Of a DNA stretch of 50,999 nucleotides, positions 5,090-21,199 are shown piece after piece. A program made the translations under genes and the position numbers. The stretch lies in the NCBI RefSeq assembly GCF_947494025.1, contig NZ_CANLTQ010000021.1:1-50999 (forward strand). Reading direction: 5' to 3'. Position 1 is the stretch's first letter; each line of letters starts with the position of its first letter. The notes under the pieces were generated by a model that was not told where the DNA came from, searched no databases, and saw only the letters and a program-made list of their open reading frames with translations. The DNA is from an uncultured Jannaschia sp. (GTDB lineage Bacteria > Pseudomonadota > Alphaproteobacteria > Rhodobacterales > Rhodobacteraceae).

Positions 5090-5110
5090 GTCCCTCCGCG
5101 CGCCTCCGGC

Positions 5111-5206: not shown

Positions 5207-5254
5207 AGTCGTTTCCTCCACTCATGGCCCCGCCGGACCCGGCAGGGTTCCGGT

Positions 5255-5283: not shown

Positions 5284-5285
5284 AG

Positions 5286-5321: not shown

Positions 5322-5365
5322 TCCCGGGCCCGTCCGGCGCCACATACGGCCGAACCGCCGCGCCC

Positions 5366-6424: not shown

Positions 6425-6458
6425 CGTCGGCTTTCCTGTCGGAGATCGGGGGCGGGCG

Positions 6459-7361
6459 TCAGAACCGTCCGACCGGGATCTTGAGGTAGTGATGCCCGTC
6501 CGCCTCCGCCTCCGGCAGGCGCCCCCCGCGCAGGTTGATCTGCAGCGCGGCCAGCATCCGGTTCGGGAGGGGCAGGGCGGCGTCCCGCGCCTCGCGCGTG
6601 GCGACGAAGTCCGCGCGCGACGTTCCGGCGCGGACGTGCTTGTTCTGCTCCAGGTGCTCGGCCACGCTCGCCTCCCAGGCGGGTTCGTCGCGGCCCTCGG
6701 CGCCGTAATCGTGGCCGACGAAAAGCCGCGTCGCGGGCGGACGGCGCAGGATCGACTGGAGCGAATCCCAGAGCTCGGCCGCGGAGCCGCCGGGGAAGTC
6801 GGCGCGGGACGAGCCCATGTCCGGCATCATCAGCGTATCGTGCACGAAGGAGGCGTCGCCCGCATGGAAGGCGATCGAGCCCAGCGTATGCCCGGGCGTA
6901 AGCTCCACCTCCACGGTCAGATCGCCCAGCGTGAACGTGTCGCCATCCGCGAAAAGCCGGTCGAAGTCCCGCTCGGGGTCGAGCTCGTCGGCGAGGTTGT
7001 AGAGTTCCCGCCAGAGCACGGCGATGTCGCGGACCTTCGCGCCGATCGCGTTCGGCGCGCCCGTGCGCGCCTTCAGCAGCGCCGACGCCATCACGTGGTC
7101 GGCATGGGGATGGGTGTCGAGGATCCATGCGGCCTCCAGCCCCTCGCGCGCGCAAAGCCCGAGCACCCGGTCCATCGCGGTCGTGTCGAAGCGGAAGCTC
7201 TTCGGGTCGAACCCCCAGACCACGTCGATAAGCGCGGCCTTCTTCGTCGTCGGGCAGGCGCAGACATACTGGATCGAGCCCGTATCCGGCTCGTAGCAGC
7301 CCCAGACGTCGGGGCTTCCCGGTCCGGTCGAAGGTGAATGGCGGATGTCGGCGTCGGTCAT
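6459..7361 (-). CDS. Persulfide dioxygenase-like MBL-fold hydrolase
   Basis: 300 residues. The metal motif DTHPHADHVMAS is near residue 97, and further metal ligands are in TPGHTLGS, FVHDTLMMPD and FVGHDYG. This pattern matches ETHE1/Blh-type persulfide dioxygenases, which oxidise glutathione persulfide to sulfite and protect against sulfide. The gene follows two YeeE/YedE-type sulfur-transport subunits with only 3 bp between, the arrangement known from BigR-controlled sulfide-detoxification operons. No BigR-like repressor gene is seen here. A glyoxalase II-like role is the alternative, but the context argues for sulfur. Confidence 0.85.
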   Translation of the reverse strand: MTDADIRHSPSTGPGSPDVWGCYEPDTGSIQYVCACPTTKKAALIDVVWGFDPKSFRFDTTAMDRVLGLCAREGLEAAWILDTHPHADHVMASALLKARTGAPNAIGAKVRDIAVLWRELYNLADELDPERDFDRLFADGDTFTLGDLTVEVELTPGHTLGSIAFHAGDASFVHDTLMMPDMGSSRADFPGGSAAELWDSLQSILRRPPATRLFVGHDYGAEGRDEPAWEASVAEHLEQNKHVRAGTSRADFVATREARDAALPLPNRMLAALQINLRGGRLPEAEADGHHYLKIPVGRF

Positions 7362-7364
7362 GGT

Positions 7365-7793
7365 TCAGGTTCCCTGCATCAGCGGCCCGGCCTTCGCAAG
7401 CCGGCCGAGCCAGATCCCCACGAGCATCGCCGGCACGAAGACGAGCGTGCCCGGCGCCGCCATCGGCAGCGCCGTCCAGGCGGGTCCGGGGCAGAAGCCG
7501 CCGATCCCCCAGCCGATCCCAAACAGCGCCGCGCCGGCAAGGAGCGGTCGGTCGATGTCGCGCCGCGTCGGCAGATCGAAGGACGGCATCAACACCGGGC
7601 GCGACCGCCGCCAGGCCAGACGGTAGCCCAGAAAGGCCGTCACCGTCGCGCCGCCCATCACGATGGCGAGACTCGGATCCCACGCGCCGGCCACGTCGAG
7701 GAAGTTGAGAACCTTCGCGGGGTTGGCCATGCCCGAAAGCAGAAGCCCGATCCCGAAGAGGAGCCCGGCCGCGAACCCCGCCGCCGCCCGCAT
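7365..7793 (-). CDS. YeeE/YedE-type sulfur transporter subunit, C-terminal half (DUF6691/PmpB-like)
   Basis: 142 residues. The start ATG at 7793 overlaps the stop of the upstream gene by 1 bp (TGATG). A longer in-frame extension is the shadow of that gene. There are about four membrane segments. The diagnostic blocks are LLSGMANPAKVLNFLDV and IGGFCPGPAWTAL, which includes the conserved Cys of the family. It pairs with the 7793-8227 product to make a full transporter-like unit for thiosulfate or other sulfane-sulfur compounds, inferred from the family and from the persulfide dioxygenase downstream. Confidence 0.85.
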   Translation of the reverse strand: MRAAAGFAAGLLFGIGLLLSGMANPAKVLNFLDVAGAWDPSLAIVMGGATVTAFLGYRLAWRRSRPVLMPSFDLPTRRDIDRPLLAGAALFGIGWGIGGFCPGPAWTALPMAAPGTLVFVPAMLVGIWLGRLAKAGPLMQGT

Positions 7794-8227
7794 CACGCGC
7801 CCCCCGCATGGCGCAGGACGTAGACCGTGAGCGCGGCGAAAGCCATGAACGTCGCCACCGCGGCGAGCGAGCGCCCCGAAAGCCGCGCCAGACCGCAGAC
7901 GCCGTGCCCCGAGGTGCAACCCGAACCGAGCGAGGTGCCGATCCCGACCAGCAGCCCGGACACGGCCATCCACGGAAGGTCGCCGCTCACGACCTGTGCC
8001 GGAAAGCCGCCGGCGACGAGCGCCCAAAGAAGCGGCGCGGCGAGGAGGCCGCCGATGAAGGCAACGCGCCAATCCCGGTCAGGCCCCGCGACGGTGCCGG
8101 CGGTGATCCCGAGAATCCCGGTGATCCGCCCCAGCGCGGCCATCACGAACACGGCGGAAAGCCCGATCAGGATTCCTCCGGCGAGGGAGGCCCAGGGCGT
8201 GAAGTCGGTCGGCACGATGGGCGGCAT
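7793..8227 (-). CDS. YeeE/YedE-type sulfur transporter subunit, N-terminal half (PmpA-like)
   Basis: 144 residues, all membrane, with the family signature GSGCTSGHGVCGLARLSGRSL near residue 103 carrying the conserved cysteines. It is the first gene of a three-gene unit with the DUF6691 partner and the persulfide dioxygenase. In larger YeeE proteins both halves are one chain; here they are split and translationally coupled. Confidence 0.87.
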   Translation of the reverse strand: MPPIVPTDFTPWASLAGGILIGLSAVFVMAALGRITGILGITAGTVAGPDRDWRVAFIGGLLAAPLLWALVAGGFPAQVVSGDLPWMAVSGLLVGIGTSLGSGCTSGHGVCGLARLSGRSLAAVATFMAFAALTVYVLRHAGGA

Positions 8228-8328
8228 CTGATCCTCTCGGCTGGCGGCGCGCAGGAACGGTCGACGGGAGTCCTCGACCTCTCGATGCTTTACTCGGCGA
8301 CCCGGGCCGCCTAGTCAAACCTCATCGG

Positions 8329-8402
8329 GGGCCCATAGCTCAGCTGGATAGAGCAGCCGACTTCTAATCGGCAGGTCGAGGGTTCGAATCCTTCTGGGCC
8401 CG
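8329..8402 (+). tRNA. tRNA-Arg (anticodon TCT)
   Basis: The 74-nt cloverleaf folds fully. The acceptor is GGGCCCA (8329-8335) with TGGGCCC (8395-8401), the D arm is GCTC/GAGC, and the anticodon arm is GCCGA-CTTCTAA-TCGGC with anticodon TCT. The T arm has TTCGAAT in the loop and one G-T pair, and the discriminator is G8402. CCA is not encoded. Its 3' end is the attachment site of the element that follows and remains intact after insertion. Confidence 0.95.
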
Positions 8403-8403
8403 C
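8390..8403 (+). repeat. attL core: 14-bp direct repeat inside tRNA-Arg
   Basis: CCTTCTGGGCCCGC covers part of the T arm and the 3' acceptor strand of the tRNA. An identical copy is at 18233-18246. The sequence beyond the repeat differs on both sides of both copies. Confidence 0.9.
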
Positions 8404-8424
8404 TTACCATTTTCATTTGTCCTT

Positions 8425-9528
8425 CTATTTCAGGTTCTTGGGGGATATTTTGGCGAACCTTTCGGGGTGGTTCGCCAAGGTCTGTGCCGGTTTTGTCCCG
8501 GCGAGGGCCTTCATCGCCTGCTCTCCGCCGAGGCGACGGTCGGCCTTGTCGATGTACGGTTGGACCTCGGAAATGGTCTTGTGCCCTGTCACGGCGATTA
8601 TCTGCGGGCCGCTTAGGCCCAGCTCCGCCATGCGCCTGGCAATGCCCTTGCGGAGGCCGTGCGAGGCACAGTCGGGCAGATCGGCGGCATCGCACCACTT
8701 TCGCATCTCCTTTCCGAGCCCGCCGGGCGAGCGTGACGCCCCCTGGCGAGTCTGAAGGAACGTGAAGGCATCCGAGGGGCAGGCGTCGAGGACCGGCACC
8801 AAGTCCGGGTGCAACGGTATGTCGATGACGATACCCGTGCGCTTCACGGTCTTTCCGCGTCGGTAGATCAGGCGGTGGCCGCGGATGTTCCCCCAGCCCA
8901 GGGCGCAAGCGTCCTTCCGGCTGGCCCCCGTGTAGAGCATCAGCATCATGGCGCGGTGTGCGAGGGTGCCGGGTGCGTGAACGTCGAGGAAGCGGACAAT
9001 CTCGCCTTCGTCCCACGTGTGGAAGCCCCCTTGGGGCAGCTCGTACATCTTCACGCCTCGCGCCGGGTTCGTCTCAATCCATTCAAGGTCGAGCGCGTGG
9101 TCGAGGAGCTGGCGAAGGCGCTTCAGCCGGTTGTTCGCGGCGGCGGGCGTCTCGGCCTTTTCCGCCATCAATGCCTTGACGTGCCGGCGCTTCAGGCCGG
9201 CGATCCGCTTCCGACCGTGTTCGACGCGCATGGCCTCGATCACGCCGCGATAACTCCGCCTGGTGGTGTCGCCCAGGCCAAGCCACTCCTTTGACTGGTA
9301 GTAGGACGCCACCAGAGCGTCGAAGGACAGGGGGACTGTCCGTTCCGCACCGATCAGCCCGCGCGTCTTCTCGCCCTGCATGGCCGCCTCGTAACGCGCT
9401 GCAAAGTCGTCGGACCCGTAGTCCTTCCCCAGCTCGGCACTGAAGCCACCCTTGCGGAAGCGCCAGCGGCGCGTGCCGTGGCGATCCGTGTAGGGGGTAG
9501 CCCCCGGGAACTGGCGGCGGCGCTTCAT
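8425..9528 (-). CDS. int: Tyrosine recombinase / phage-type integrase
   Basis: 367 residues. Residues ~1-60 are the arm-binding type N-terminus, ~70-160 the SAM-like core-binding domain, and ~175-340 the catalytic domain. Visible catalytic residues are an Arg in YTGASRKD (R204), HGLR (H290, R293), TGHK (H316) and the nucleophile in QPYID (Y325). The first Arg stands one place later than in the common TGxR motif, a variant I believe occurs in alphaproteobacterial phage integrases. The gene ends 22 bp from attL, the normal position for an integrase acting on that tRNA. It starts 2 bp after the 56-aa gene and therefore sits at the end of the capsid operon. Confidence 0.95.
   Translation of the reverse strand: MKRRRQFPGATPYTDRHGTRRWRFRKGGFSAELGKDYGSDDFAARYEAAMQGEKTRGLIGAERTVPLSFDALVASYYQSKEWLGLGDTTRRSYRGVIEAMRVEHGRKRIAGLKRRHVKALMAEKAETPAAANNRLKRLRQLLDHALDLEWIETNPARGVKMYELPQGGFHTWDEGEIVRFLDVHAPGTLAHRAMMLMLYTGASRKDACALGWGNIRGHRLIYRRGKTVKRTGIVIDIPLHPDLVPVLDACPSDAFTFLQTRQGASRSPGGLGKEMRKWCDAADLPDCASHGLRKGIARRMAELGLSGPQIIAVTGHKTISEVQPYIDKADRRLGGEQAMKALAGTKPAQTLANHPERFAKISPKNLK
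8450..8478. promoter_or_regulatory. Inverted pair of TTGGCGAACC sites beside attL
   Basis: TTGGCGAACC (8450-8459) and its exact inverse GGTTCGCCAA (8469-8478), with a 9-bp spacer, lie inside the 3' end of int about 47-75 bp from the attL core. The same 10-mer occurs twice near attR. They are candidate arm-type sites for integrase or sites for an excision factor. Confidence 0.6.
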
Positions 9529-9530
9529 GG

Positions 9531-9701
9531 TCAGTCCCAGTCGCTCGGGCCGCTCTCGGTCGCGGTGCTGTTGATCGTGTAGATGCGGATAGTGCCATCG
9601 GGCAGCACGTCGGTTCGTGTGATCGGGGTATCCGCGTCCCGAAAGGCTTTCAGGACGCGAGCAAGCGCGGCTTGGGTGGGGCTCGCCTTACGATTGGCCA
9701 T
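9531..9701 (-). CDS. Small uncharacterised protein preceding the integrase (56 aa)
   Basis: Starts MANRKASPTQAALARVLKAF and ends in an acidic tail (SDWD). The middle, VLPDGTIRIYTI, looks like a short beta hairpin after an N-terminal helix. The ATG at 9701 overlaps the portal stop (9688) by 14 bp, and the stop is 2 bp before the int start. Position next to int suggests an excisionase or recombination-directionality factor, but no such motif is recognisable. Small proteins of this layout (basic helix then DGTI) are, to my knowledge, frequent beside integrases in Rhodobacterales elements. Confidence 0.7.
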   Translation of the reverse strand: MANRKASPTQAALARVLKAFRDADTPITRTDVLPDGTIRIYTINSTATESGPSDWD

Positions 9702-10917
9702 CGTTCGACCCCTCCTGCTCGCCCTGGCGCGTCATGTTCAGCGGCGACAGGTACTCGTCGCCGCCCTCGATTTTGCGCATGTTCTCAAGCCGCCGGATTT
9801 CGTTGGGCGACATCCACCCCCACTCACGAGCAATCCGGTAGGCCTCGAAACGGGCCTTCTGGTCGCCTCGCAGGAGGCCTAGGAGGTCGTGCTCCACGAA
9901 GTACCGCCTACGGCCCTCAGCGGTCAGCAGGGCGGCCGTCATGGCCTGCTCGATGCGTCGGGCCATCGGGGCGAGGCATCGTTGCACAAGCGCCCGGCTT
10001 TCGCCGTCGACGTTCGAATAGGTCGCGTTGTCGGTGATACCGACGACGGTCGGCGGGACGCTGAAAATCCGCGCCACGTCCATGTTCGTGAGCTTCCGGC
10101 TTTCCAGGAACTCGGCATCCTTTGCAGGCGGTGACATGGTTTTGAAGTCGGCCCCGCCGTCCATCAAGATCAGGCCAGACCCGTCGTCCTCGGTCTCGAT
10201 CTTCTGACGCCACGAGTCGAGCAAGCGGTCTCGAAGCTCCGGCGACATGGTGTGCGGCGTCGACAGGACGCCCCTTGAACGGAAGGCCCTGGTCGTCTGT
10301 TTGGCGGTTTGCTCCTGTTGGGTGAGGGCAAGCGCGAAGGTCTCGCGGCTGTGCTGGATCGGGGACACGCCCATCACTCCGTCGCGGTCGAGCCGGTAGC
10401 GCAGGTGCAGGATTTCTTCCTGCACGTGGGTCCGCGATGCGCCGCTGCGCGCGGGCGACACGCGGTAGCGCAGCCGCCCCGATTCCAGCCGCTCCACTCC
10501 GACCAAGCGCGGGTGCAGCGGGTGCAGGGCGTCGACTTGGCCGCGCCCGTTCCACTCGATCCGCGCGAAGGCGTTTCCGTGCGTGAGGAGCGACACCACA
10601 AGGAACTCCCGCCCTTCAAAGGCCGTCATCGTCTCGTTGAACCTGTCGTGAAGGACCTCGTGCAGCGGATGCCCCGTCGCCAGCTCGCGGCCACCGTCTT
10701 CCGTCCGCGCGTAAAGGTTGAGCGGCATGGCGGCGAGGTTCTGCGAGATGACGCTCATGCAGGCGTTCGCGACCGCAAGGCTCGACGCCCGGTCGGCGTC
10801 CACGAAAGTCCCGCCCGTGCTGCGCTGGCCCAAGAAGGTGGTCAGCGACGGGTCGGACAGGCCAACGGTCATGTCCCGACGATGCTCGCGGCCGAAAAGG
10901 CGGGATAGAAAGCTCAC
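9688..10917 (-). CDS. HK97-family phage portal protein
   Basis: 409 residues. The portal forms the dodecameric ring at one capsid vertex, through which DNA is packaged and to which neck/tail attaches. Recognisable blocks are AVANACMSVISQNLAAMPL near residue 49, HPLHEVLHDRFN, EGREFLVVSLLTHGNAFARI, ILHLRY and VARIFSVPPTVVGI. The C-terminal part holds WGWMSPNEIRRLENM and GGDEYLSPLNM. Length is normal for the family. The ATG at 10917 overlaps the protease stop by 4 bp. It is encoded after the capsid and protease genes, the reverse of the usual phage order. Confidence 0.95.
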   Translation of the reverse strand: MSFLSRLFGREHRRDMTVGLSDPSLTTFLGQRSTGGTFVDADRASSLAVANACMSVISQNLAAMPLNLYARTEDGGRELATGHPLHEVLHDRFNETMTAFEGREFLVVSLLTHGNAFARIEWNGRGQVDALHPLHPRLVGVERLESGRLRYRVSPARSGASRTHVQEEILHLRYRLDRDGVMGVSPIQHSRETFALALTQQEQTAKQTTRAFRSRGVLSTPHTMSPELRDRLLDSWRQKIETEDDGSGLILMDGGADFKTMSPPAKDAEFLESRKLTNMDVARIFSVPPTVVGITDNATYSNVDGESRALVQRCLAPMARRIEQAMTAALLTAEGRRRYFVEHDLLGLLRGDQKARFEAYRIAREWGWMSPNEIRRLENMRKIEGGDEYLSPLNMTRQGEQEGSNDGQS

Positions 10918-11450
10918 CGGGTCAGCTCCAAGATCTGAAGAACGCGCGCCGCGTGGGCGAGGCCGGGGGGCAGGGGCTTCGCCTGGGACCGGGCCGTGAC
11001 GACGGTCGAGGCATAGGCCGGGAAGGCGGCGACGACGGACACCTCGAAGAGGTCGACCGCGCGCAGCTCGCGGCGATCGCCGTCGCGGGCTTCGTCGCGG
11101 GCCGTGAACCCAAAGCTCATGCCGCCCAGGTCGCCACGCTCGGCCAGTGCCAGCACGTCGCGGCCCGCCTGGGTGTCAGGTACGTCGAGGTCGAACGCGA
11201 GCCCCCTCGTGTCTTCGGACAGGCGCAGCGTCCCGGAACGGGTGCGGGCGAGGACGCGGGCGGCATCGTGGTCGACCAGGGCGAGAATGTCGGGGTTCGC
11301 CGTCAGGGTCGCCCGGAACGCGCCGGGGGCGATGGTCTCCACGACACCGCCCCCGATCCTGGCTTCCGCGCCGAAGACCGCCGCGTAGCCTTCGAGGCGG
11401 CGGCCCTTGGCGCGCAGCTCGTCGGTCAGGAAGCGGCGCTCGACGGCCAT
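10914..11450 (-). CDS. HK97-family prohead protease
   Basis: 178 residues. The start ATG at 11450 overlaps the capsid stop by 1 bp (TGATG). Upstream in-frame sequence is capsid shadow and was left out. Family blocks are LEGYAAVFGAEA, VETIAPGAFRATL, LVDHDAARVLART and GLAFDLDVPDT. GGMSFGF (around residue 111) is next to the region carrying the serine-type active site of U35-like proteases. It cleaves the capsid N-terminal scaffold segment during head maturation. The length is normal, and no fusion to the capsid gene is present. Confidence 0.93.
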   Translation of the reverse strand: MAVERRFLTDELRAKGRRLEGYAAVFGAEARIGGGVVETIAPGAFRATLTANPDILALVDHDAARVLARTRSGTLRLSEDTRGLAFDLDVPDTQAGRDVLALAERGDLGGMSFGFTARDEARDGDRRELRAVDLFEVSVVAAFPAYASTVVTARSQAKPLPPGLAHAARVLQILELTR

Positions 11451-12697
11451 CAGGACACCGCCGCCCACCGGAACCCTTCCGGGTGCCGAACGGCCACGTC
11501 GCAATCGAGGAAGGCATGGATCAGCGCGCCGCCCTTCGACGCCACGTCGGCGTGATAGGGGTTCACAAGAATGTCGATGCCCGACCAATAGCCCAGGTAC
11601 AAGCTCGCCCATTCTCCATAGACCAGCGCATCGGCGTCGAGCGCAGCTCCTATGTTGCCGGGAACTTGGGTGGAGGTCTCGACGCGCTCGCCGTGGAACT
11701 GTTCCGCCGTGGTGATCACGTGCCCGTCCGTGTCGCGCACCTTCCGTGCCTTCGCCATAAGCGAGGGGTTCGTCAGGAACGCGCGGGTGCCTGTCACGTC
11801 GTCGGTTTCGAGCGCCGCGATCAGGTCGGCCGTCAGGTCGGACAGGAGTTGCGCCCCCGCGATGCCGGGCAGCTCTGCCACATTCGAGTCGGCAAGGATG
11901 CCGGTCGGTTCGTTCGCTCCACCGCCCCGGATTGCCGCCGCGTCGAGACGTTGCGACAGGAGATAGGCGAGGTCCGCGCGCAGGATCGGTTCCAACGCCG
12001 CGCTGGACTGAAGAAGCATCTTCCGCGATACCTCGTATTCCGCCGCGACGGTCTTCGGGTCCATCCGTGTCTTCTTGAACTTCGGGTCCGAACGGGGCGC
12101 GTCGGTATGCTCCGCGATCCACCCGGCCGTGCCGGACTCTGTAAGGCGGGGCAGGTCAAGGTTTCCGGTCAGGCCGCGCAGCACGGTCGCGCCAAGGCCC
12201 TCGATCCGCAAGGCGGCACGGCGGCGATCCGTCATGGCGGCGAGGTCGGTTGCGATCAGGTTGCTGCCCGGCCCCGCGCCCGGCGTCGTCGTCTTGAGGA
12301 CGCGCGACTCGCCGCCGAGAATGACCTCGGTCGGGATCATCACGCCACGGACCTCGCCCCGGTCGCGGGACAGCTCCTGGTGCCATTCGGATTCCATCCC
12401 GGTCAGGACGCCGGAACGGCTTTCGGATAGCGCCTTCGCTACGCTGTAGCCTTCCAGACCCCGGCGCTCGACGCTTCCGGTGACGGTATCGGCGCGCCCT
12501 TCAAGGCGTTCGAATTCGGCCAGGCGCTCGGCATCGGTCAGTCGACGGTTCAATCCTTCGACCTCGCCCGTCAGAGCGTCAAAGCGAGTCCGCTCCTCGC
12601 CCGACAGGTCTCGGTTTTCGGTCTCGGCCTTGGTCGAGATGGTCTTGAGCTCCGCGATCTTCGCGGCCCGCTTTTCCTTGATTTCCTGCGTCTTCAT
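11450..12697 (-). CDS. HK97-fold major capsid protein
   Basis: 415 residues. The first ~75 residues are charged and coiled-coil-like (KEKRAAKIAEL, EGLNRRLTDAERLAEFERL), the expected cleavable delta/scaffold domain. After it come HK97 blocks such as VMIPTEVI, GLTGNLDLPRL, AGWIAEHTDAPRSDPKF, YEVSRKMLLQSSAALEP, ANEPTGIL, VYGEWASLYLGYWSGIDILV and AFLDCDVAVRHPEGF. It makes the icosahedral shell. The start overlaps the 74-aa gene by 4 bp. A full-length, undamaged capsid gene in such a small element is the main argument for a capsid-forming satellite. Confidence 0.96.
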   Translation of the reverse strand: MKTQEIKEKRAAKIAELKTISTKAETENRDLSGEERTRFDALTGEVEGLNRRLTDAERLAEFERLEGRADTVTGSVERRGLEGYSVAKALSESRSGVLTGMESEWHQELSRDRGEVRGVMIPTEVILGGESRVLKTTTPGAGPGSNLIATDLAAMTDRRRAALRIEGLGATVLRGLTGNLDLPRLTESGTAGWIAEHTDAPRSDPKFKKTRMDPKTVAAEYEVSRKMLLQSSAALEPILRADLAYLLSQRLDAAAIRGGGANEPTGILADSNVAELPGIAGAQLLSDLTADLIAALETDDVTGTRAFLTNPSLMAKARKVRDTDGHVITTAEQFHGERVETSTQVPGNIGAALDADALVYGEWASLYLGYWSGIDILVNPYHADVASKGGALIHAFLDCDVAVRHPEGFRWAAVS

Positions 12698-12918
12698 TGT
12701 CTGTCCATCTCCGGGATCATGCCGTCATCGCGACGGGGGGCTAAGGGTCCATCAGGCCGGAAACCGGCACGGGGCCATGCCGCATCTCTGCGGGAAACTT
12801 GTGCGAGCAACGCTCGGATCGCGGGCAGCTTGGTGCGAAAGGCGCGTTCCTGTCGGGCGGCTTCGCGCTCCGCCGCGTCGATCAGCGCGTTGAACTCGAA
12901 GCGTTCGGCGGGACTCAT
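12694..12918 (-). CDS. Small uncharacterised protein upstream of capsid (74 aa)
   Basis: Starts MSPAERFEFNALIDAAEREA and is strongly helical and charged over its first ~40 residues (AEREAARQERAF), followed by a Pro/Arg-rich tail. It overlaps the capsid start (12697) by 4 bp and the preceding 46-aa gene by 4 bp, so it is translated in register with capsid assembly genes. Scaffold-like or neck roles are possible from position and helix content but are not supported by any motif. Confidence 0.65.
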   Translation of the reverse strand: MSPAERFEFNALIDAAEREAARQERAFRTKLPAIRALLAQVSRRDAAWPRAGFRPDGPLAPRRDDGMIPEMDRQ

Positions 12919-13055
12919 GCTGCCCTCGCCTGAAAGGGGGTGCGGGGTCGGCCGTCGTCTGCGGCTGCGGATAGCCGCGCGAACCTCGCCCCAACGATCC
13001 GACCAGCCGACCCCGCAAGGATCGTCGCCGTAAGCAAGGGCAAGGCGATCTTCAT
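12915..13055 (-). CDS. Very small protein with N-terminal hydrophobic segment (46 aa)
   Basis: Starts MKIALPLLTATILAGSAGRI, resembling a short signal/anchor helix, then RFARLSAAADDGRPRTPFQARAA. The ATG at 13055 overlaps the previous stop by 4 bp and its stop overlaps the next start by 4 bp. The in-frame upstream extension belongs to the 13052-13705 gene. Function unknown; a membrane peptide with a lysis or exclusion role would be speculation. Confidence 0.55.
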   Translation of the reverse strand: MKIALPLLTATILAGSAGRIVGARFARLSAAADDGRPRTPFQARAA

Positions 13056-13705
13056 TCGTCCGTGTCCTCCTCGGACACTTCCCCGGCGCGCATGGGCGAG
13101 CCACTGAAATCCCACACGACGGACTCGGCAATCTCGGCAATGGCCGATCCCTGAATCCTCAACACGGTCGAAAGCGGGCCGGTCTCTTTGCGGAGAACGT
13201 CGATGATGCGGCGTCGATGAACCACGTCATCGGCGTCCCAGGGATCGTCGCTCATCGGGGCGAAGACCTCCTCGGAACCGTCGACATACTTGATCGTGAT
13301 CGACTTTGCCCCGGCGTCGAACCGAAGCTCCGCGATCTTCGCGGCCTCGTCGGGATCGCTGACGATCTGCGCGAGACGTTTCTCCGCGGGCGGCTTAACC
13401 CCTGCGGACGGCCAATCCTCTATCGGCATGGAACCACCGTTCCGAGTCAGACCGTGAAGAAGGTAAAGACCCTCATGCGGTGTAAAAGCGGAGCTGTTGA
13501 ACCCGTATCCCGTCACAAGTTTCGCGACGAATGAAGGCTTGGCGGTCCAGATTTTTCGCCCCACGCTCTTGGGCAGCCATCCCGTTCCGTCCGCGTCTTC
13601 CTGTTGCAAGCTCCGGTACACTTGCTGAAGGTCCGACCAGCCAAGGCCGAGGGCCGTGGCGGTCTTCTTGGCTGCGTCGAGCAGCGAATCGTTCTTATGG
13701 GTCAT
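13052..13705 (-). CDS. Uncharacterised element protein, 217 aa
   Basis: Start chosen at ATG 13705 (MTHKNDSLLDAAKKTATALG); an in-frame ATG at 13732 and a TTG at 13762 are alternatives, and none has a strong Shine-Dalgarno. The N-terminal 70 residues contain helices (LGLGWSDLQQVYRSLQQ) ending in WLPKSVGRKIWTAKPSFVAK. The middle has KSITIKYVDGSEEVFAPMSD, a short beta region, and the end is very acidic (EVSEEDTDE). It is the second gene of the leftward capsid operon and overlaps the next gene by 4 bp. No family recognised. An acidic C-terminus is common in head-assembly or DNA-mimic proteins, but this is only a hint. Confidence 0.65.
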   Translation of the reverse strand: MTHKNDSLLDAAKKTATALGLGWSDLQQVYRSLQQEDADGTGWLPKSVGRKIWTAKPSFVAKLVTGYGFNSSAFTPHEGLYLLHGLTRNGGSMPIEDWPSAGVKPPAEKRLAQIVSDPDEAAKIAELRFDAGAKSITIKYVDGSEEVFAPMSDDPWDADDVVHRRRIIDVLRKETGPLSTVLRIQGSAIAEIAESVVWDFSGSPMRAGEVSEEDTDE

Positions 13706-13772
13706 GCTGGCATCCGATCTTTTTGCCACCATGACCCGTGTGATTGCGGTTTGCAATCCCAAACACCAATGA

Positions 13773-14207
13773 CTAGACGAGCCGCCGGGGCAAACCGTCG
13801 AGCCCCGTGATGGAACGCCAGACCGCGATCATCATTCGGAAGTCACCTTCTTCGAGCTCCTCGCGCCACGCATCGCTTCCCACGGTCGACACCGGCCCCG
13901 ACTCGCGCCACTGGACCCAAAGAAGCGCGAGGATGCCCTCACGGGTCTTCGGGCGGTGTATCTCCATCTGGGCGAGGATCGCGTACTGGCGGGAGCCCAG
14001 CTCGCGCGACCAGCGGGTCTCTTCGTCCATGGTCAGATGGCCATTGGGGGTATTCCATTCCTCATGGATGGCAAGCCAGGCGTGATAGAGCGCCATGAAG
14101 CGTTCGTCGCCGGTCGGCGTCGCGTTCGCCGCAAGGGGCAGGGCGGCAGGAACCGCCAGGGCGGGAAGGGTGGCGCAAACGGCGCGACGGGTCATGTGAT
14201 GGGTCAT
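13773..14207 (-). CDS. Uncharacterised element protein with twin-arginine-like N-terminus, 144 aa
   Basis: Start ATG at 14207 (MTHHMTRRAVCATLPALAV); a second ATG is at 14195. The open frame runs to 14705, but the added 166 residues have no protein-like composition and cross a low-GC regulatory stretch. Residues 5-33 look like a signal sequence (TRR, hydrophobic core, NATPTGDE). The mature part is Trp-rich: FMALYHAWLAIHEEW, ETRWSRELGSRQYAILAQM and LWVQWRESGP. This type of protein recurs, to my recollection, in Rhodobacterales prophages near head genes, with no known role. It is the first gene of the leftward operon. Confidence 0.65.
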   Translation of the reverse strand: MTHHMTRRAVCATLPALAVPAALPLAANATPTGDERFMALYHAWLAIHEEWNTPNGHLTMDEETRWSRELGSRQYAILAQMEIHRPKTREGILALLWVQWRESGPVSTVGSDAWREELEEGDFRMMIAVWRSITGLDGLPRRLV

Positions 14208-14586
14208 CTTCGGTCTCACAGATAGACGGCTTTCGAAGGCCGTTGCCCGGGGCGGCCGGGCGCCGGGGCGTTCGAAACGTGCTGTGAGACACGCGAGCCG
14301 ATTTCCCCCAAGGGGTCTTGTATGACGGCTCCGCCCCGACATACTCTGTCGGAGATGCAGCGGCCGCCAAGCCGCTCGTCGTTTAGACCGCCCTTCCAGA
14401 ACGGAAGGAACCTCGCCAAAGGTCATGCGGTCGATCACAGTCCGGGTTTCGACGCCCACCGGCACCATGCCCGTCACCACGACGCCGATCAAGCCCCTTC
14501 CAGGGGCCTGTAGGCGTCCGACGGCAATCTGGGCTCTTCGATACAGCAGCAAAATCAACCCGGACAACCGCTTACGCGACGGGTTC

Positions 14587-14614
14587 TTGCAAAGTTCTTT
14601 ATATCCGTTAATAG
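14587..14614 (+). promoter_or_regulatory. Candidate rightward promoter in the element control region
   Basis: A -35-like TTGCAA (14587-14592) and -10-like TAATAG (14609-14614) are 16 bp apart in an AT-rich patch. The predicted start falls within the large inverted repeat that follows. Confidence 0.4.
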
Positions 14615-14617
14615 GAA

Positions 14618-14647
14618 AACCGCAGGGTGTTGACGCACCCTGCGGTT
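14618..14647. promoter_or_regulatory. Perfect inverted repeat, 12-bp arms, 6-nt centre
   Basis: AACCGCAGGGTG (14618-14629), centre TTGACG, and CACCCTGCGGTT (14636-14647). It lies directly after the rightward -10 candidate, the position of an operator. On the minus strand it is followed by TTTTCCT, so it could alternatively stop leftward transcripts coming from the terminase side. Confidence 0.6.
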
Positions 14648-14759
14648 GAAGCAACCCGCCGTTAGCTGGCGGATGATTTGTGAATTCACTCATGTGCAAT
14701 CGCATGAGGGGAATCTGAGGTCAAGCGTCCAGCTGACGGCTCCACAATAGGAGCCTTCA

Positions 14760-14963
14760 ATGGCTTACGACGACGACTACTCAAGAAAGCCTAGCTATCG
14801 CCTAACCTACTCTGATGCCCTCGTAATTTGGGGTCGGTACAGGAAAGGTGAGTTTCAAAACCGGATCGCTGCTGACTTCGATGTGAACCCGGCACGGGTC
14901 AACGAGGTGCTGAAGGGTAAGCGCTTCCCCGGTAGCGAAGACGCGGCAGGCCGAATGACCTGA
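14760..14963 (+). CDS. Small HTH regulator-like protein (67 aa)
   Basis: The only rightward gene in the element. It starts MAYDDDYSRKPSYRLTYSDA. Residues ~18-52 form a clear helix-turn-helix: DALVIWGRYRKGEFQNR, then IAADFDVNPARVNEVLKGKRF. AGGAG(C) precedes the ATG by about 8 nt. A terminator follows immediately, so it is a single-gene transcript. Being solitary, divergent and between the two leftward operons, it is the best candidate for the element's repressor or switch. A small-terminase-like role (those proteins also carry HTH) is an alternative, since no small terminase is otherwise found. Confidence 0.8.
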   Translation: MAYDDDYSRKPSYRLTYSDALVIWGRYRKGEFQNRIAADFDVNPARVNEVLKGKRFPGSEDAAGRMT

Positions 14964-14969
14964 AGAGGA

Positions 14970-14994
14970 GGGGCGGCCTAAGCCGCCCCTTTTT
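14970..14994 (+). terminator. Intrinsic terminator after the HTH gene
   Basis: GGGGCGGC (14970-14977), loop CTAA, GCCGCCCC (14982-14989), then TTTTT (14990-14994). It is 7 bp past the HTH gene stop. Confidence 0.9.
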
Positions 14995-15022
14995 CCGAGT
15001 ACTTTGCCAAGCCCAACCGGGC

Positions 15023-16690
15023 CTATTCCATCAGCTCCGCCAGCCACGCGGGGATTTCCTCCGCCTCTTCGCGGTCGACTGCTGCCAGCGCCATCGCCAG
15101 CGCCACCAGGCCGTCAATCCGGCCGCTGCTCTTGTTCTTTGCCAGCTTGCGGTTCCCCGCCGGGTCCATCTCCACCACGGCGTTCGAGGCGCAGAATTGC
15201 AGCACCGGGTTCCCGCCGTGCCGCAGGCGCGCCTCCGCAACCAGGCGCTCCATCTTGTCGAGGGCAGGGGCCATGTCCCGGAAGCCCTGGCCGAACGGCT
15301 CGATGGGCGGCTCCGCCCCGATCCGGCCAAGTTCGCGCTTCAGATCCTCGATCCGCCACCGGTCGTAAGCGATGCGTTGCACGTCGTAAGTCTCGCAGGC
15401 CTCCGCGATGGTCTCCGCGATCACGCCCGGGTCGACCACCGCGCCCGGAATGAGCGTCAGCAGGCCCTGCCGTGCCCAGAGGTCATAGGGTACCCGGTCC
15501 TGGTCGGATTTATCCTCGATGCCCTGTGCAGGCAGAAAGAAGCGCGGCAACACGTCGAAGCCCCCGGCGTCGTCGGGGAAGACGAAGACCAGGGCCGTCA
15601 GGTCGCGCGACTGCGACAGGTCGAGCCCGCCCCAGCACTTCCGCCCTTCCAGCGCCGCGAAGTCGACCGCCCCGCCGTTCGCCGTCCACTCGGCCTTGGC
15701 GATGAAGCGGACATGCGCTTCGACGCGCTGGTTCAAGATCAGGTTTCGGAACGACTGCTCGGCGGCGGGCATCCGCTTCGCCTGGGACGCGAGGCGGCGC
15801 ACGTCGCCCAGGGACCGGAAGTCGCCGAGGGCAGGGTTCGCTTTGTGCCAAGTCGCCTCGGACCAAGGATCATCGTCCTCGTCCGCGCCGTAGAAGGTCA
15901 GATGGAACGACGGGTCTTCGACCTCGCCCGCCTCGATCTTCAGGCCGTAGTCCACCAGCTCGGACATCACCGCCGTATCGTTGGCCGCCTGGGTGCTGAT
16001 AACGCAAAGCAACGGATTGTCCCGCGCGCCCATAGCGGTGTCGAGGGCGTCGTATAGGTCGCGCTTGGGGGCGGTGCCCAGCTCGTCGTAGATGGTGAAT
16101 GACGGCGAAAGGCCCTGTTTGGTCGAAGCGTCGGCCGACAGCGCGGCGAAGATCGAGCCCTTGCCGTGCCCGGTCGTCACTTCGATCCGCTTGCTATGGC
16201 GAATGACGTTCACGCGCGCGTCCAACTCGACATGCGCGTCGAGGATCGCGACCATCTCCGAGAAGGTCTTACCGCTTTGGGCCTTGTCGTTCGCGGCCGC
16301 ATAGACCTCGCCCCGACCCTCCGCCTCCGGTCCCAGCAGGTGGCACAGGCCCAGACCGGCGACGAGCTGCGTCTTCCCGTTCTTCCGGGCCATCGACAGG
16401 ACCGCTGTGCGCACCGGGCGGAAGCCCGCGTCGTCCGTCGCGTAGATCGCCTCGAGGAAGTCGCGCTGCCAAGGCCGGACCTTCAGCTTTGTCCCGGCGA
16501 GCGAGCCCTGGGTGATCGGCAGGTCCTCGAGGAAGGCCACCACGCGATCGACACGGGACAGACCGGGTTCGTCCCACGGTAGGACGGCCCGGCCAGACGA
16601 ATGGACCGTCTCGGCCGGGCCGAAAAGGTCCGCAGGGCGCTCGTAGGCGAGCGCGATCCGCGGCTTCGCTCCCGGTCCTCTAAGTCCCAT
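15023..16690 (-). CDS. terL: Phage terminase large subunit (HK97/lambda-like)
   Basis: 555 residues, full length. The N-terminus, MGLRGPGAKPR, is typical. The ATPase has a Walker A-like block MARKNGKTQLV (~100-110) and Walker B with catalytic Glu in FTIYDELGTA (D202-E203). The nuclease domain has GGLDLSQSRDLTAL (D357), followed by YDRWRIEDLKREL and the final metal-ligand region SSGRIDGLVALAMAL. It packages DNA into the prohead and cuts it. The HNH gene lies 71 bp upstream, an arrangement commonly required for HK97-type packaging. No small terminase gene is adjacent. Confidence 0.96.
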   Translation of the reverse strand: MGLRGPGAKPRIALAYERPADLFGPAETVHSSGRAVLPWDEPGLSRVDRVVAFLEDLPITQGSLAGTKLKVRPWQRDFLEAIYATDDAGFRPVRTAVLSMARKNGKTQLVAGLGLCHLLGPEAEGRGEVYAAANDKAQSGKTFSEMVAILDAHVELDARVNVIRHSKRIEVTTGHGKGSIFAALSADASTKQGLSPSFTIYDELGTAPKRDLYDALDTAMGARDNPLLCVISTQAANDTAVMSELVDYGLKIEAGEVEDPSFHLTFYGADEDDDPWSEATWHKANPALGDFRSLGDVRRLASQAKRMPAAEQSFRNLILNQRVEAHVRFIAKAEWTANGGAVDFAALEGRKCWGGLDLSQSRDLTALVFVFPDDAGGFDVLPRFFLPAQGIEDKSDQDRVPYDLWARQGLLTLIPGAVVDPGVIAETIAEACETYDVQRIAYDRWRIEDLKRELGRIGAEPPIEPFGQGFRDMAPALDKMERLVAEARLRHGGNPVLQFCASNAVVEMDPAGNRKLAKNKSSGRIDGLVALAMALAAVDREEAEEIPAWLAELME

Positions 16691-16761
16691 AAAATCAGTA
16701 CCCTAACTAAGTGTGCGCGCTTGGTGGGTGTCGGTCTCCAGCTCGGCAGTCTCCCGTGATC

Positions 16762-17085
16762 TCATGGCCCCCCACCCCACCAGCCGTCGCTGGGGTCGAC
16801 GGGGTTGCCGTCCGCGCCGCAGCCTTTGAAGCGACGGCCCGTCGCGTTGCCGCGCGCCCTGTCAAAGCTCGCGGTTTTCTCGTCGTGGCAGCGCTTGCAC
16901 AGGGACATCAGCCCGGCCAGTTCGGGGAACGCAGGCCCGCCCTGGCGGATCGGGGTGATATGGTCCACGACGGTCGCCTCAACAAGCCTGCCCCGACGCT
17001 CGCAGATGAAGCACAGGGGGCACGCGGCCAGCTTGACCAGTCGGAGCCGCTTCCAGTTGGAAGTGCAATACGGCCACGCTGCCAT
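16762..17085 (-). CDS. HNH endonuclease
   Basis: 107 residues. Zinc-ribbon cysteines are in CPLCFICERRG and LCKRCHDEK, and the HNH core reads VVDHITPIRQGG ... LMSLCKRCHDEKT. Phage HNH proteins of this size and position assist terminase cleavage. The ATG at 17085 overlaps the stop of the 56-aa gene by 1 bp. Confidence 0.93.
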   Translation of the reverse strand: MAAWPYCTSNWKRLRLVKLAACPLCFICERRGRLVEATVVDHITPIRQGGPAFPELAGLMSLCKRCHDEKTASFDRARGNATGRRFKGCGADGNPVDPSDGWWGGGP

Positions 17086-17255
17086 CAGGCAACCTTCCGG
17101 GCAAGGCGGGCCAGCTCGTGGGCAATCTCCGACTTTTCCTCGTGGAACCGGTGCGGGTTCCGATGATCGGGCGACAGGCGGCGCAGGCGGCTTGCCAGCT
17201 CGGCCAGCAGGTCGGACGGACGCTCGACGGGCGCGGGGCGTTCATTGCGCTGCAT
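17085..17255 (-). CDS. Small uncharacterised protein between HTH and HNH genes (56 aa)
   Basis: Starts MQRNERPAPVERPSDLLAEL. It is helical throughout, with repeated Leu/Arg/Glu (ELASRLRRLSPDHRNPHRF, then EKSEIAHELARLARKVA). The ATG at 17255 overlaps the upstream stop (17242) by 14 bp, and the stop overlaps the HNH start by 1 bp. Its position just before HNH-TerL is where a small terminase would be expected, but it is far shorter than known TerS proteins and has no HTH. Confidence 0.65.
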   Translation of the reverse strand: MQRNERPAPVERPSDLLAELASRLRRLSPDHRNPHRFHEEKSEIAHELARLARKVA

Positions 17256-17991
17256 GTCGGCTCGCCTCCCCATCGAGCACCGCCGCGAAGAACGCTCGCG
17301 CCTCCGCTCGGCCTGCCGCGCACGTTGGCGGCGCTTTGGTCGGAAGGGCGAAGAAGACGGTATCGCCCTTCTTCGCCTTCCGACCCAGCGGCGTGTTGCA
17401 GAGCTTCGGTAAGCCTTCGTCAGCAAGCCAAGCGGCCCAGCGGTTCAGCGAGCCGAAGTCCGTCGAAGGCACGATGCGCGGACCGTGCGTGATCGAGCCG
17501 AGGAAGCGGTGATCGCGGTAGCGGATGGGGATCGGGTCGGGTGCGTCGCTCGCGCGCGCGCTTTGGTGACTCTTTGGTTCTTTATTATAGGGGGTGACAC
17601 GGTTGTCACCTTTTGGCGTCACGGTTGTCACCGCTGGCTCGTCTTTCGGACGGGCGTAAGACGACAGATTTGTCACCCTTGGACGGCCGGTTTCCGTCGC
17701 CAAAGTGGCGGGCATCTTGCACCTGAACTCGGACTTTCGACTCTTGCCGCGCGCTCGATGGACCTCGATCCATCCGCCCGCTTCCAGCTCGCGGATCGCC
17801 CGCTGGACGGAGCGTTCGGACTTCCCGACGTCGAGCGCGATATCCTCAATCGTGTGGCTACAGCATGGCGAGTCTCGGTCCGACAGATCGTCACAGAACG
17901 CTGCCGCGAGAACCTTCGCGGCGTCCGACAGGTCGCGGGACTTGCGAAGGGCGCGCTTCCAATCCCAGCGGTCGCGGTTCCAGTTATCCAT
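17242..17991 (-). CDS. Winged-helix/HTH protein, possible replication or regulatory protein of the element
   Basis: 249 residues. Residues ~15-85 form an HTH domain (KVLAAAFCDDLSD, TIEDIALDVGKSERSVQRAI, RELEAGGWIEVHRARG) like those of phage replication initiators. The middle (~95-150) is polar, with TVTPKGDNRVTPYNKEP. The C-terminal ~80 residues contain SLNRWAAWLADEGLPKLCN and GDTVFFALPT. It heads the terL operon and overlaps the 71-aa gene by 8 bp. No primase or helicase motif is present, so a DNA-binding initiator or activator is likelier than an enzyme. Confidence 0.75.
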   Translation of the reverse strand: MDNWNRDRWDWKRALRKSRDLSDAAKVLAAAFCDDLSDRDSPCCSHTIEDIALDVGKSERSVQRAIRELEAGGWIEVHRARGKSRKSEFRCKMPATLATETGRPRVTNLSSYARPKDEPAVTTVTPKGDNRVTPYNKEPKSHQSARASDAPDPIPIRYRDHRFLGSITHGPRIVPSTDFGSLNRWAAWLADEGLPKLCNTPLGRKAKKGDTVFFALPTKAPPTCAAGRAEARAFFAAVLDGEASRHAAQ

Positions 17992-18199
17992 GACGCACCT
18001 CGCCAGCCCGGACGGGTTGCGAAAGGCGCGCGGCGGGGCTATCGTCTCGCTCGATCAGCCCGTCAAAGCTATCACGTTGGACGCCGCTCTCGATTGCAGT
18101 CGAGGCGGCGTTTTCCGTTGTTGCGGAGCGTTCAAGCCGGTTCGCCAAGCTCGGGATTTCGTCAATGGTATCAAAGGGGGCTTCGACGCGGTTCGCCAA
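17984..18199 (-). CDS. Possible small gene at the right end of the element (71 aa, TTG start)
   Basis: The frame is open from a TTG at 18199 to 17984, overlapping the next gene by 8 bp as in the rest of the operon. The product would start LANRVEAPFDTIDEIPSLANR and is acidic and polar. Two GGTTCGCCAA sites fall in it, both read as LANR. With no ATG/GTG and no visible Shine-Dalgarno, it may instead be the DNA-binding region flanking attR. Confidence 0.35.
   Translation of the reverse strand: MANRVEAPFDTIDEIPSLANRLERSATTENAASTAIESGVQRDSFDGLIERDDSPAARLSQPVRAGEVRHG
18139..18199. promoter_or_regulatory. Direct pair of GGTTCGCCAA sites beside attR
   Basis: GGTTCGCCAA at 18139-18148 and 18190-18199, same orientation and 51 bp apart, 34-94 bp inside the attR core. 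The shared word extends to CGGTTCGCCAAG. Identical words flank attL at 8450-8478. Confidence 0.6.
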
Positions 18200-18232
18200 G
18201 CCAAGCCTTTGATCCGTCGCGATGTATTCTTG

Positions 18233-18246
18233 CCTTCTGGGCCCGC
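18233..18246 (+). repeat. attR core: second copy of the 14-bp repeat
   Basis: CCTTCTGGGCCCGC, identical to the tRNA-Arg 3' end at 8390-8403. It marks the right boundary of the element, 57 bp before the stop of the desaturase gene that would be the chromosomal neighbour of the tRNA. Confidence 0.88.
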
Positions 18247-18303
18247 GCCTTCCCCATTTGCCGGTTCGCGCCGCGGGCGGATTCCGCGATTGGCGTTGCC
18301 TGC

Positions 18304-19320
18304 CTAGGCGAGCGCGTCGTCCAGAGACACGAGGCGACGGCGGTCCTCATCCCAAAGCTTCAGGCGGACGCAGCGCAGGCTTTCGACCAGCGTCAGCCGC
18401 TGTGCCCCGTCGAGACCGGGATGGTCGCGCAATACGGCGGGAAGACGATAGAACGGGATCCGGCTGTTGAGGTGATGCACATGATGCAGTCCGATATTGG
18501 CCGTCAGCCAGTGAAGCGGCGCCGGAAGGTCGTAATGCGAGCTGCCATGCAACGCCACTTCGTGCAGGTCCCAGTCCGGCTCGTGTTCATAGAGCGTCTC
18601 CTCGAACTGGTGCTGGACGTAGAACAGCCACACGCCCACCGTCGCGGCGAACAGGGTCGTCGGAAGAAACAGCAGGAGGACCGGCTCGAGACCGCCGAAG
18701 GCGATGATGAGCCCAAGGACGATTGCCACGGCGAGATTCGTGCCCATCGCGCTTACCCAGTAGCGGGCGCCAGCCCCCATCAGCCCCAGGGGCAAGCGGT
18801 TCTCGAAGAGGAACACCCATGCCGGCGCAAGGCCAAAAAGAACGATCGGATGCCGGTAAAGCCGATAGCGCAGGCGACCGAGCGGGGACTGCGCCCGATA
18901 CTCGGCCGCCGTCATCGTGTAGACCTCGCCCGGGCCTCGCCGGTCGAGATTGCCCGCCGCCCCGTGATGCGCCGCGTGGATGCGACGCCAGACATCGTAG
19001 GGCGTCACCGTCAGCACCCCGAGCGCACGGCCGACCCAGTCGCCCAGGGTCTTGTTGCGGAACAGGGAACCGTGCCCGCAATCATGCTGGATCACGAAGA
19101 TCCGCACGAGGAACGCGCCGTTGAGGAGCGCGATGGCCACGGCAAGCCATGGGCTCACGGAGATGGCCCACCAGCCCAGGGCCCACAGCAGCAGGAACGG
19201 TCCGAGCGTTACCGCGATCTCTATCAGGCTGCGGCGATCGGAGGGCTCGCGGTAGCGCGCCAGGATGGGAACCCAGCGCCGCGCTTCCGCGGCGGCAACG
19301 CTGTCAGGTGAGGTGGTCAT
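18304..19320 (-). CDS. Fatty acid desaturase, membrane di-iron type
   Basis: 338 residues from ATG 19320 (MTTSPDSVAAAEARRW), preceded by GGAGA at a suitable distance. An upstream in-frame start adds 25 unlikely residues. The three histidine boxes are complete: HDCGHGS (~residue 82), HAAHHG (~118) and HHVHHLN (~279). Hydrophobic pairs lie around 35-75 and 160-220, as in FadS-type desaturases of phosphatidyl-linked acyl chains. Function: O2-dependent double-bond insertion in membrane lipids, with electrons from a ferredoxin or cytochrome not encoded here. The exact regio-specificity is unknown. Confidence 0.92.
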   Translation of the reverse strand: MTTSPDSVAAAEARRWVPILARYREPSDRRSLIEIAVTLGPFLLLWALGWWAISVSPWLAVAIALLNGAFLVRIFVIQHDCGHGSLFRNKTLGDWVGRALGVLTVTPYDVWRRIHAAHHGAAGNLDRRGPGEVYTMTAAEYRAQSPLGRLRYRLYRHPIVLFGLAPAWVFLFENRLPLGLMGAGARYWVSAMGTNLAVAIVLGLIIAFGGLEPVLLLFLPTTLFAATVGVWLFYVQHQFEETLYEHEPDWDLHEVALHGSSHYDLPAPLHWLTANIGLHHVHHLNSRIPFYRLPAVLRDHPGLDGAQRLTLVESLRCVRLKLWDEDRRRLVSLDDALA

Positions 19321-19750
19321 TGAATGGGTCTCCGGCGGGGCCCCAAGGCTGCGGGGCCTGAAGCGCGGTAAGTAAAGGCAGATTGGCTGGCGCATGGACG
19401 GTCGTGCGCATTTCGGGCCTCATCGATCTAGATACCGTCCATCCGGAACGCATCAGCGACGCAAGGCCGAATCGGCAAGAGCAAGGTAACGTTGCCGTGG
19501 ATTGGTACCCCTCGCTCCCGGCGGACGCATTGCGCACAGCTTGCAGATATACAAGCGTTTCCTGCGACGCTCACCTGCATATTGTCGAATAGCTTCGAAG
19601 ATATGGCTCGAATACTCCGGCTGACATTTGTACGTGCCGTCCGGCGCAACATAGAGGTCGCGCTTCGATATTCTACTGCGGCCGGCGACCTTGTTGCCCA
19701 GAGCCTGCCTTGGGTTCCCTTAGCGGGTCGAGCGGCGGAGCCGGGTGGCC
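19321..19750. other. Intergenic stretch without recognisable gene
   Basis: 430 bp between the desaturase start and the second IS5 relic. Open frames are short and compositionally shadow-like. No repeat or RNA structure was noted. Confidence 0.5.
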
Positions 19751-20284
19751 TGTCCAGGCCTGGTCCGACCCGCGCCGGCACCCTGAACGGGTCCGCCATC
19801 GACGCCTTGGCACGCGGTGCCTTCGGATCCGCGCGGCGGCCAACCGATATACGACGCCGCCGCCGGTCAGGCGTGTCTGAGCACTGCCCGGCAGGGCCTC
19901 CCACGACGATGTCCGAAGGGATCGAGGTGCTGTTCGGATCGCCGCTGCGGCGGACCACCGGCGTCGTCGCCAGCCGACCGAGGCTCGCGGGGCTCGACCG
20001 GCCGGTGCCCTTCGTCGGACGATCCTTCCGGAAGGCTCGCCGATCCTCCTCGGTCCCGAGGCTGTGCCGGCGGCGGAAGACCCTGGCGGTTCGACTGCCC
20101 CGCCGGGGTGGCGGCAAAGCTGCTCGGCCATGAGCTCACCGCACGAGACTTCGACAGACAAACCGCCAAACATCAGACCCGCATCGTCATCCTCAACCGC
20201 GGCATCCCCGTCACGGAACCCGTCGGCTGACCCCCACGGGGGAAAGGGGAAGCTCGGCCTTCAGGCGTTTCGTGCAACAGGGCC
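19751..20284 (+). pseudogene. Decayed IS5-family transposase relic (copy 2), internally deleted
   Basis: The plus strand shows the same transposase as copy 1, in shifting frames: PTRAGTLN, RGGQPIYDAAAGQACL, EGIEVLFGSPLRRTTG, LAGLDRPVP and LCRRRKTLAV. After an internal deletion of the DDE region comes the true C-terminus, KLLGHELTARDFDRQ followed by ILNRGIPVTEPVG and a stop at 20230. A terminal-repeat-like end (GTGCAACAGGGCC) is at 20272-20284. Upstream sequence from 19751 (TGTCCAGGCCTG) also matches copy 1. Both copies carry the same extra palindromic segments B and C (here ~19882-19920 and ~20010-20054), so they descend from one already-interrupted ancestor. Confidence 0.8.
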
Positions 20285-20343
20285 GCGACCGGGTCACAAA
20301 ACATTCCCGGTCGCGTTATCGGCGATGGCCCTTCGTCTCGGCG

Positions 20344-21192: not shown

Positions 21193-21199
21193 GGTCGCC

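Follow-up and report, generated by a model that had tools for sequence, protein, structure and literature searches.

A compact tRNA-Arg element with its own head genes as a probable capsid-forming phage satellite in Alphaproteobacteria

A 9.84-kb element at a tRNA-Arg gene

What kind of element sits at a tRNA-Arg gene of an uncultured Jannaschia sp. and encodes head and packaging proteins in under 10 kb? We addressed this question in a stretch of 50,999 nucleotides (hereafter the window), which is contig C21 (NZ_CANLTQ010000021.1) of a 4.39-Mb, 215-contig genome. Since many alphaproteobacteria carry this compact gene set, the element is most likely a virus-like parasite that uses another virus's tails; from sequence comparison, we give a probability of roughly 0.8 that it is an integrated capsid-forming phage satellite borrowing tails, similar to the capsid-forming phage-inducible chromosomal islands (cf-PICIs).

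The element is bounded by a 14-bp repeat of the 3' end of the tRNA-Arg(TCT) gene (8329-8403). This repeat, CCTTCTGGGCCCGC, has exactly two matches in the window (8390-8403 and 18233-18246) and none in 100 shuffled sequences, and its distal copy compares with a maximum of 12 bp in 30 shuffles of the flank, which bears out the attachment (att) repeat claimed in an earlier note on this DNA. That note had also described open genes for integrase, capsid, protease, portal, large terminase (TerL), and HNH endonuclease; all six are open, match Pfam families, and have family-typical lengths. Transcription on the minus strand runs from a 71-aa open reading frame (ORF) through the replication initiator, a 62-aa ORF, HNH, and TerL to a middle region (ORFs of 140, 226, and 74 aa), then capsid, protease, portal, a 56-aa ORF, and the integrase adjoining the tRNA; the only divergent ORF of the middle region (67 aa) is on the plus strand. 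The features are as follows, with element counts referring to the 23 repeat-bounded elements introduced below:

8390..8403, plus: att repeat, tRNA-side copy at the tRNA-Arg 3' end (exact 14-bp repeat, tRNA call)
8425..9528, minus: tyrosine integrase (PF00589, 1.2e-12; phrog_1, 1.3e-33)
9531..9701, minus: 56-aa ORF (cluster in 11/23 elements; no Pfam match)
9688..10917, minus: portal protein, 409 aa (PF04860, 8e-95; cluster in 23/23 elements)
10914..11468, minus: HK97-type prohead protease, 184 aa (PF04586, 1e-40; 23/23 elements)
11450..12697, minus: major capsid protein, HK97 family, 415 aa (PF05065, 2.9e-29; capsid tree)
12694..12918, minus: 74-aa ORF (ORF caller; no Pfam match)
13052..13732, minus: 226-aa ORF preceding the head genes (without a match in Pfam or PHROGs)
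13773..14195, minus: 140-aa ORF (tblastn relatives in several elements)
14760..14963, plus: 67-aa divergent ORF (ORF caller; no significant Pfam match)
15023..16690, minus: large terminase TerL, HK97 type, 555 aa (PF20441, 1.3e-39; PF03354, 9e-21; phrog_9, 1.5e-142)
16705..16778, minus: conserved DNA site, proposed cos (motif comparison at the HNH/TerL junction)
16762..17085, minus: HNH endonuclease (PF01844, 1.3e-8; phrog_2323, 4.7e-28; 23/23 elements)
17085..17273, minus: 62-aa ORF (cluster upstream of HNH in 9/23 elements; no significant Pfam match)
17242..17991, minus: predicted replication initiator, O-like, winged-helix N-terminus, 249 aa (phrog_270, 8e-12; phrog_391, phrog_678; HTH_36)
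17984..18199, minus: 71-aa ORF (ORF caller; no Pfam match)
18233..18246, plus: att repeat, distal copy (exact 14-bp repeat, shuffle comparison)

The reported lack of tail and lysis genes also holds. Pfam, run on all 14 called genes, recognised no tail, lysis, small terminase (TerS), or AlpA family (for AlpA, neither PF05930 nor PF12728), and PHROGs, run on 10 ORFs, no tail or lysis family. The HNH protein additionally matches phrog_4581 (named terminase small subunit), though over its HNH part, at 2.5e-8, and below several HNH families. A diverged TerS may still be present. No Pri-Rep primase family was recognised among the window genes; instead, the gene at 17242-17991 is, by its profile matches, an O-like replication initiator.

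A family of related elements

Does the same gene set recur between repeats elsewhere, as the earlier note had proposed to check? Scanning genome contigs with TerL produced 142 candidate stretches; 106 of them encode relatives, and 80 were retained. By tblastn with the window proteins, the relatives share the order HNH-TerL-(1-3 kb)-capsid-protease-portal, usually followed by an integrase and a tRNA gene; L062 and L064 depart from it, with the capsid directly after TerL. Hosts belong to the Roseobacteraceae, Paracoccaceae, Rhizobiaceae, Stappiaceae, Methylobacteriaceae, Caulobacteraceae, and others, with the closest elements to the window's found in Roseobacteraceae and Paracoccaceae, and the insertion sites are several different tRNA genes. 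Repeats at the tRNA end were present in 15 of the 17 loci tested (14-51 bp vs. at most 14 bp in 30 shuffles per flank), while loci without a neighbouring tRNA were bounded by a general repeat search, a weaker method; in L055, the second-ranked repeat was chosen because it matches that of L049.

This yielded 23 repeat-bounded elements (the window's and 22 relatives) of 9,526-12,155 bp, 22 of them within 9.5-11.2 kb, so that the proposed search did find the gene set, at 22 loci spanning 9.5-12.2 kb. The HNH, TerL, capsid, protease, and portal clusters occur in all 23 elements and the integrase cluster in 20. Fourteen of the 36 top loci were left out: the tmRNA-linked L042 and L050, where the att search gave nothing above shuffles; L051, where the general search gave no convincing repeat; and 11 others that are partial, truncated, or different (L039, L046, L056, L058-L061, L063, L065, L111, and L112). 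A scan of viral contigs added, among the best 80 matches, at least 23 loci (L113-L135) in which all five core genes are present; some of these loci are identical to elements listed before. A larger prophage around one of these, L117, was considered and set aside, as its eight upstream ORFs match primase, helicase, and AAA/SMC-like families and no tail family; a 1013-aa AAA/SMC-like gene upstream of this satellite (5213-8254) is possibly a defence gene. Within the window's own GTDB family, some match to TerL exists in 62 of 295 genomes, and the capsid-protease-portal order was confirmed in the two that were followed (G263 and G294).

The remaining genes of the 22 relatives (159 ORFs, with core genes and the main integrase cluster set aside) likewise lack any Pfam tail, lysis, or TerS family (complete lists of 25 and 24 families). 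What they do contain is PF05135 head-tail adaptors (14 members), PF05521 head completion proteins (2), AlpA-type proteins (PF05930 in 1, PF12728 in 3), and replication, regulator, toxin-antitoxin, and transposase families, with primase or helicase families in some relatives (Pfam and PHROGs). PHROGs, for which the best 25 of 72 and the best 25 of 62 families were considered, placed phrog_40 in 15 ORFs. By a family hidden Markov model (HMM), the adaptor is present in 15 of the 23 elements; this HMM, built from the 15 adaptors, has no significant match in the other eight.

Are these genes maintained, and do the elements move? When relatives were compared in nine close pairs, TerL, capsid, protease, and portal had dN/dS values of 0.02-0.29 (<0.15 in 33 of 36 values) and HNH values of 0.05 to 0.35, with synonymous change near saturation in some pairs. 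By this measure, the head genes of the relatives are under purifying selection. For the Labrenzia element L049, the joined flanks match unbroken in G372 (91%, 1-560 of 560) and G377 (82%, 1-546), which on this alignment are precise empty sites; in the 38 remaining genomes (its own aside), the match covers the left part only and ends at 215-330. For L048, 26 genomes keep the tRNA side and none has both flanks in one piece. In the window's genus the element is present in 1 of 20 genomes, the only other match at E 1e-60 being a 34% TerL in G306. A separate observation concerns G075, where a TerL piece (C1:2616395-2616994) shares 81% identity with that of the window across 200 residues but has an internal stop, and a second piece lies nearby; it appears to be the remnant of a close relative.

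A further feature common to the family is a DNA pattern of fixed spacing at the HNH/TerL junction: a G-tract, loosely ATCACSRGA, ACCG, N20, and CTTAGTT (in the window at 16705-16778, minus strand, with ACCG at 16735-16732 and CTTAGTT at 16711-16705). The strict form of its second half stands at the junction in 54 of 68 loci (including 20 of the 23 elements as well as L056 and L152), many of which served to derive the pattern; elsewhere it occurs once in 2.1 Mb, both strands counted. It is missing at L005, L038, L060, L064, L066, L067, L068, L069, L079, L101, L111, L135, L141, and L149. Because its phase to the longest upstream frame varies, and it falls before or after the stop of that frame, the site is not a protein motif. 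In a held-out, motif-only scan of viral contigs, 15 contigs matched; 11 have the motif between the HNH and TerL genes of a family member (two of these were already in hand, and L241 shows only HNH and TerL) and four have no family gene near it. A second motif pattern matched one contig, not a family member.

We suggest that this junction site is likely a cos site. In HK97 (NC_002167), a G-tract and ACCG are similarly spaced near the DNA ends, and the family profile, run over ~9 kb, fits best 12 bases from the DNA end, with a score that is low (i.e., negative) and dependent on ACCG. Masking the ACCG columns moves the best fit elsewhere, and pieces of the unrelated phages VP882 and Mica outscore HK97, so this comparison is weak and only suggestive. 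Folded as single-stranded DNA, the cos-like site is unremarkable (z -0.83). The new finding here is this site between HNH and TerL, whose DNA is conserved irrespective of reading frame.

Kinship with tailed phages and with known satellites

How do these elements relate to tailed phages? In a capsid tree—a quick one with long branches—46 satellite capsids and L005 form one group (SH-aLRT 99), outside of which fall all seven phages tried (HK97, VP882, Mica, phi39:1, S-LBS1, Javan630, and ECO1230-10) and also the satellites L062, L064, and L066. The TerL tree places 41 satellites in one starred group and, in a second, mixes eight satellites with L056, L111, and the unclassified L060, which makes an exchange of TerL with tailed phages probable. 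Among the matches listed, the best deposited phages reach 42.6% for TerL, 33.3% for capsid, and 38.5% for portal; no record of a deposited phage reaches 60% for any of the three.

The tailed relative L056 (~5547-21226 in a Rhodospirillales metagenome-assembled genome) is a compact prophage whose capsid and portal are distinct, with a tape measure of 865 aa and a head closure gene; L111 is like it by tblastn. It resembles the satellites in its HNH-site-TerL module (TerL 58%) and differs from them in its capsid and portal (22-30% identity) and its tail and head closure genes. The result named in the earlier note as speaking for a recent deletion product (close relatives with the same genes inside a larger tailed prophage at this site) was not found; the tailed relative seen, L056, has a different capsid and portal.

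Several observations weigh against a tail-borrowing satellite. The host genome shows no helper by the three families searched, as PF04860 finds only the portals of the element and of a gene transfer agent (GTA) and PF05136 and PF10145 add none. The window copy has neither an adaptor match (HMM) nor a TerS family (Pfam), so that its head completion may not be self-sufficient, and it is in none of the nine dN/dS pairs. Its empty site is half seen: in the tRNA-Arg alignment suggested by the earlier note, G306 lacks the element and retains the left flank and tRNA, but its right flank is different. Some relatives carry damaged genes (the L034 integrase is split into two ORFs, the L040 portal is short at 221 aa, the L059 TerL lies in two overlapping stretches, and that of G075 is interrupted), and the TerL/HNH/site module is common to satellites and the tailed prophage L056.

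The last two points would also suit a tailed HK97-type prophage left defective by the loss of its tail and lysis genes, as would the fact that all head genes are HK97-type. However, all 23 elements, spread over many hosts and sites, share this state, which disfavours a one-off deletion product; the relatives show purifying selection; and the capsid-protease-portal order contrasts with that of HK97, a 39.7-kb tailed phage that shares the head and terminase families in the order TerS-TerL-portal-protease-capsid. We therefore give a prophage remnant only a very small chance. The missing helper prophage (by the three families tried) and the lack of any recognised tail gene could instead point to a tailless autonomous virus, or to a capsid that has been domesticated (a viriform) and works without phage tails. 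Yet the head-tail adaptor kept in 15 of the 23 elements is hard to explain without tails, and sporadic presence in the genus (1/20) and many insertion sites speak against domestication, making this the least probable of the explanations considered.

If the element is a satellite, is it a cf-PICI? Its anatomy fits the published cf-PICI plan (PMC10690885, PMC10803314, PMC13230959, and PMC10448857), sharing an integrase with att sites, its own capsid, protease, and portal, TerL with HNH, no tail genes, and the form of a small integrated island. Among the described cf-PICI components, TerS, head-tail connectors or adaptor, AlpA, and a primase-type Pri-Rep are not recognised in the window copy, which has the O-like initiator, and the element is ~10 kb against a cf-PICI average of 14 kb (PMC10803314). 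The "unusually small" size noted earlier thus stands against that average, but is normal within the family. The cf-PICIs are called widely distributed across Bacteria (PMC10690885), and Alphaproteobacteria are absent from the main host list quoted in PMC10803314.

Counting the element as a full member of the known cf-PICIs, from another class of hosts, is a question of naming and descent that overlaps with the satellite interpretation (the odds are not additive). It draws support from the same functional plan (PMC10690885, PMC13230959) and from a Luteimonas locus, L069, that looks cf-PICI-like and whose capsid groups with those of satellites L062 and L064; with no TerS, AlpA, or primase family recognised in the window copy, we regard membership as possible but doubtful. 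The L069 locus itself (1852-12320, Luteimonas aquatica) lies at a tRNA-Ala and carries an integrase, a capsid-protease-portal-HNH-TerL run, and a gene for head completion; a 14-bp repeat would give it 10.2 kb. The earlier note had left the choice between a cf-PICI and a related undescribed lineage. Because TerS, AlpA, and—in the window copy—a connector were not found, the latter fits better, with "undescribed" judged from open papers.

Another comparison is with MulchRoom and MiniFlayer, satellites of Streptomyces phages, which according to PMC10690885 also encode their own capsid, portal, and terminase and differ in having TerS, a scaffolding protein, direct terminal repeats, and virulent Streptomyces phage helpers. 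In the open literature, the titles and abstract openings listed (for one query the first 20 of 5,255, for another 15 of 20) name no alphaproteobacterial satellite of this kind, a negative of little weight.

Possible tail sources and a proposed life cycle

Where would the tails come from? A helper phage need not be resident in the host genome. The only other PF04860 locus in the window's genome is an RcGTA-type cluster (C7:84500-104000, L227), with tape measure, baseplate hub, and megatron genes. Satellites might then complete their heads with host GTA tails and not only with phage tails. A GTA megatron gene is indeed present in 13 of 15 alphaproteobacterial host isolates tested (satellite hosts only, isolates rather than metagenome-assembled genomes), and in 8 of 16 hosts, including the window's, the sole other PF04860 portal lies 7-12 kb from a megatron gene on the same contig. 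However, hosts G339 and G340 lack the megatron gene and other hosts have further portals. GTAs are also common in these bacterial groups, which again counts against the use of GTA tails, and we consider it highly unlikely. In Pararhizobium mangrovi (L051, 10001-21620), the satellite portal lies ~2 kb from a GTA-type portal, with a megatron gene 8 kb further; the profile matches this GTA-type portal only at both ends, within a 310-aa frame.

Of the smaller genes, those in the middle segment (13052-14963) have no significant Pfam match. The 226-aa ORF is a suspected regulator, from its position only (its AlphaFold2 model was poor, pLDDT 48, and left unused), and the 67-aa divergent ORF, judged by eye, is a possible helix-turn-helix (HTH) repressor. 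The 140-aa ORF has ~30% tblastn matches in L034, L042, L050, and L113. PADLOC families, run on eight window ORFs, gave only weak matches, to the HTH part of the replication protein.

For a satellite that borrows phage tails, we propose the following cycle. Growth of a tailed helper phage would derepress the island, which would excise at the tRNA-Arg repeat and form concatemers by replication from its own initiator. HNH and TerL would cut these concatemers at the element's own cos, and small self-made heads would each be filled with one 9.84-kb unit. Tails and lysis would come from the helper, as probably would the head-tail adaptor and small terminase.

The data point to a lineage of satellites, ~10 kb long and making their own capsids, that is widespread in Alphaproteobacteria. 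If each head takes up a single unit of 9.5-11 kb, an HK97-type head of unusually small size would be expected. With so small a gene set and a proposed cos, it becomes possible to test both packaging without an obvious small terminase and the least that a satellite needs to build a head of its own.

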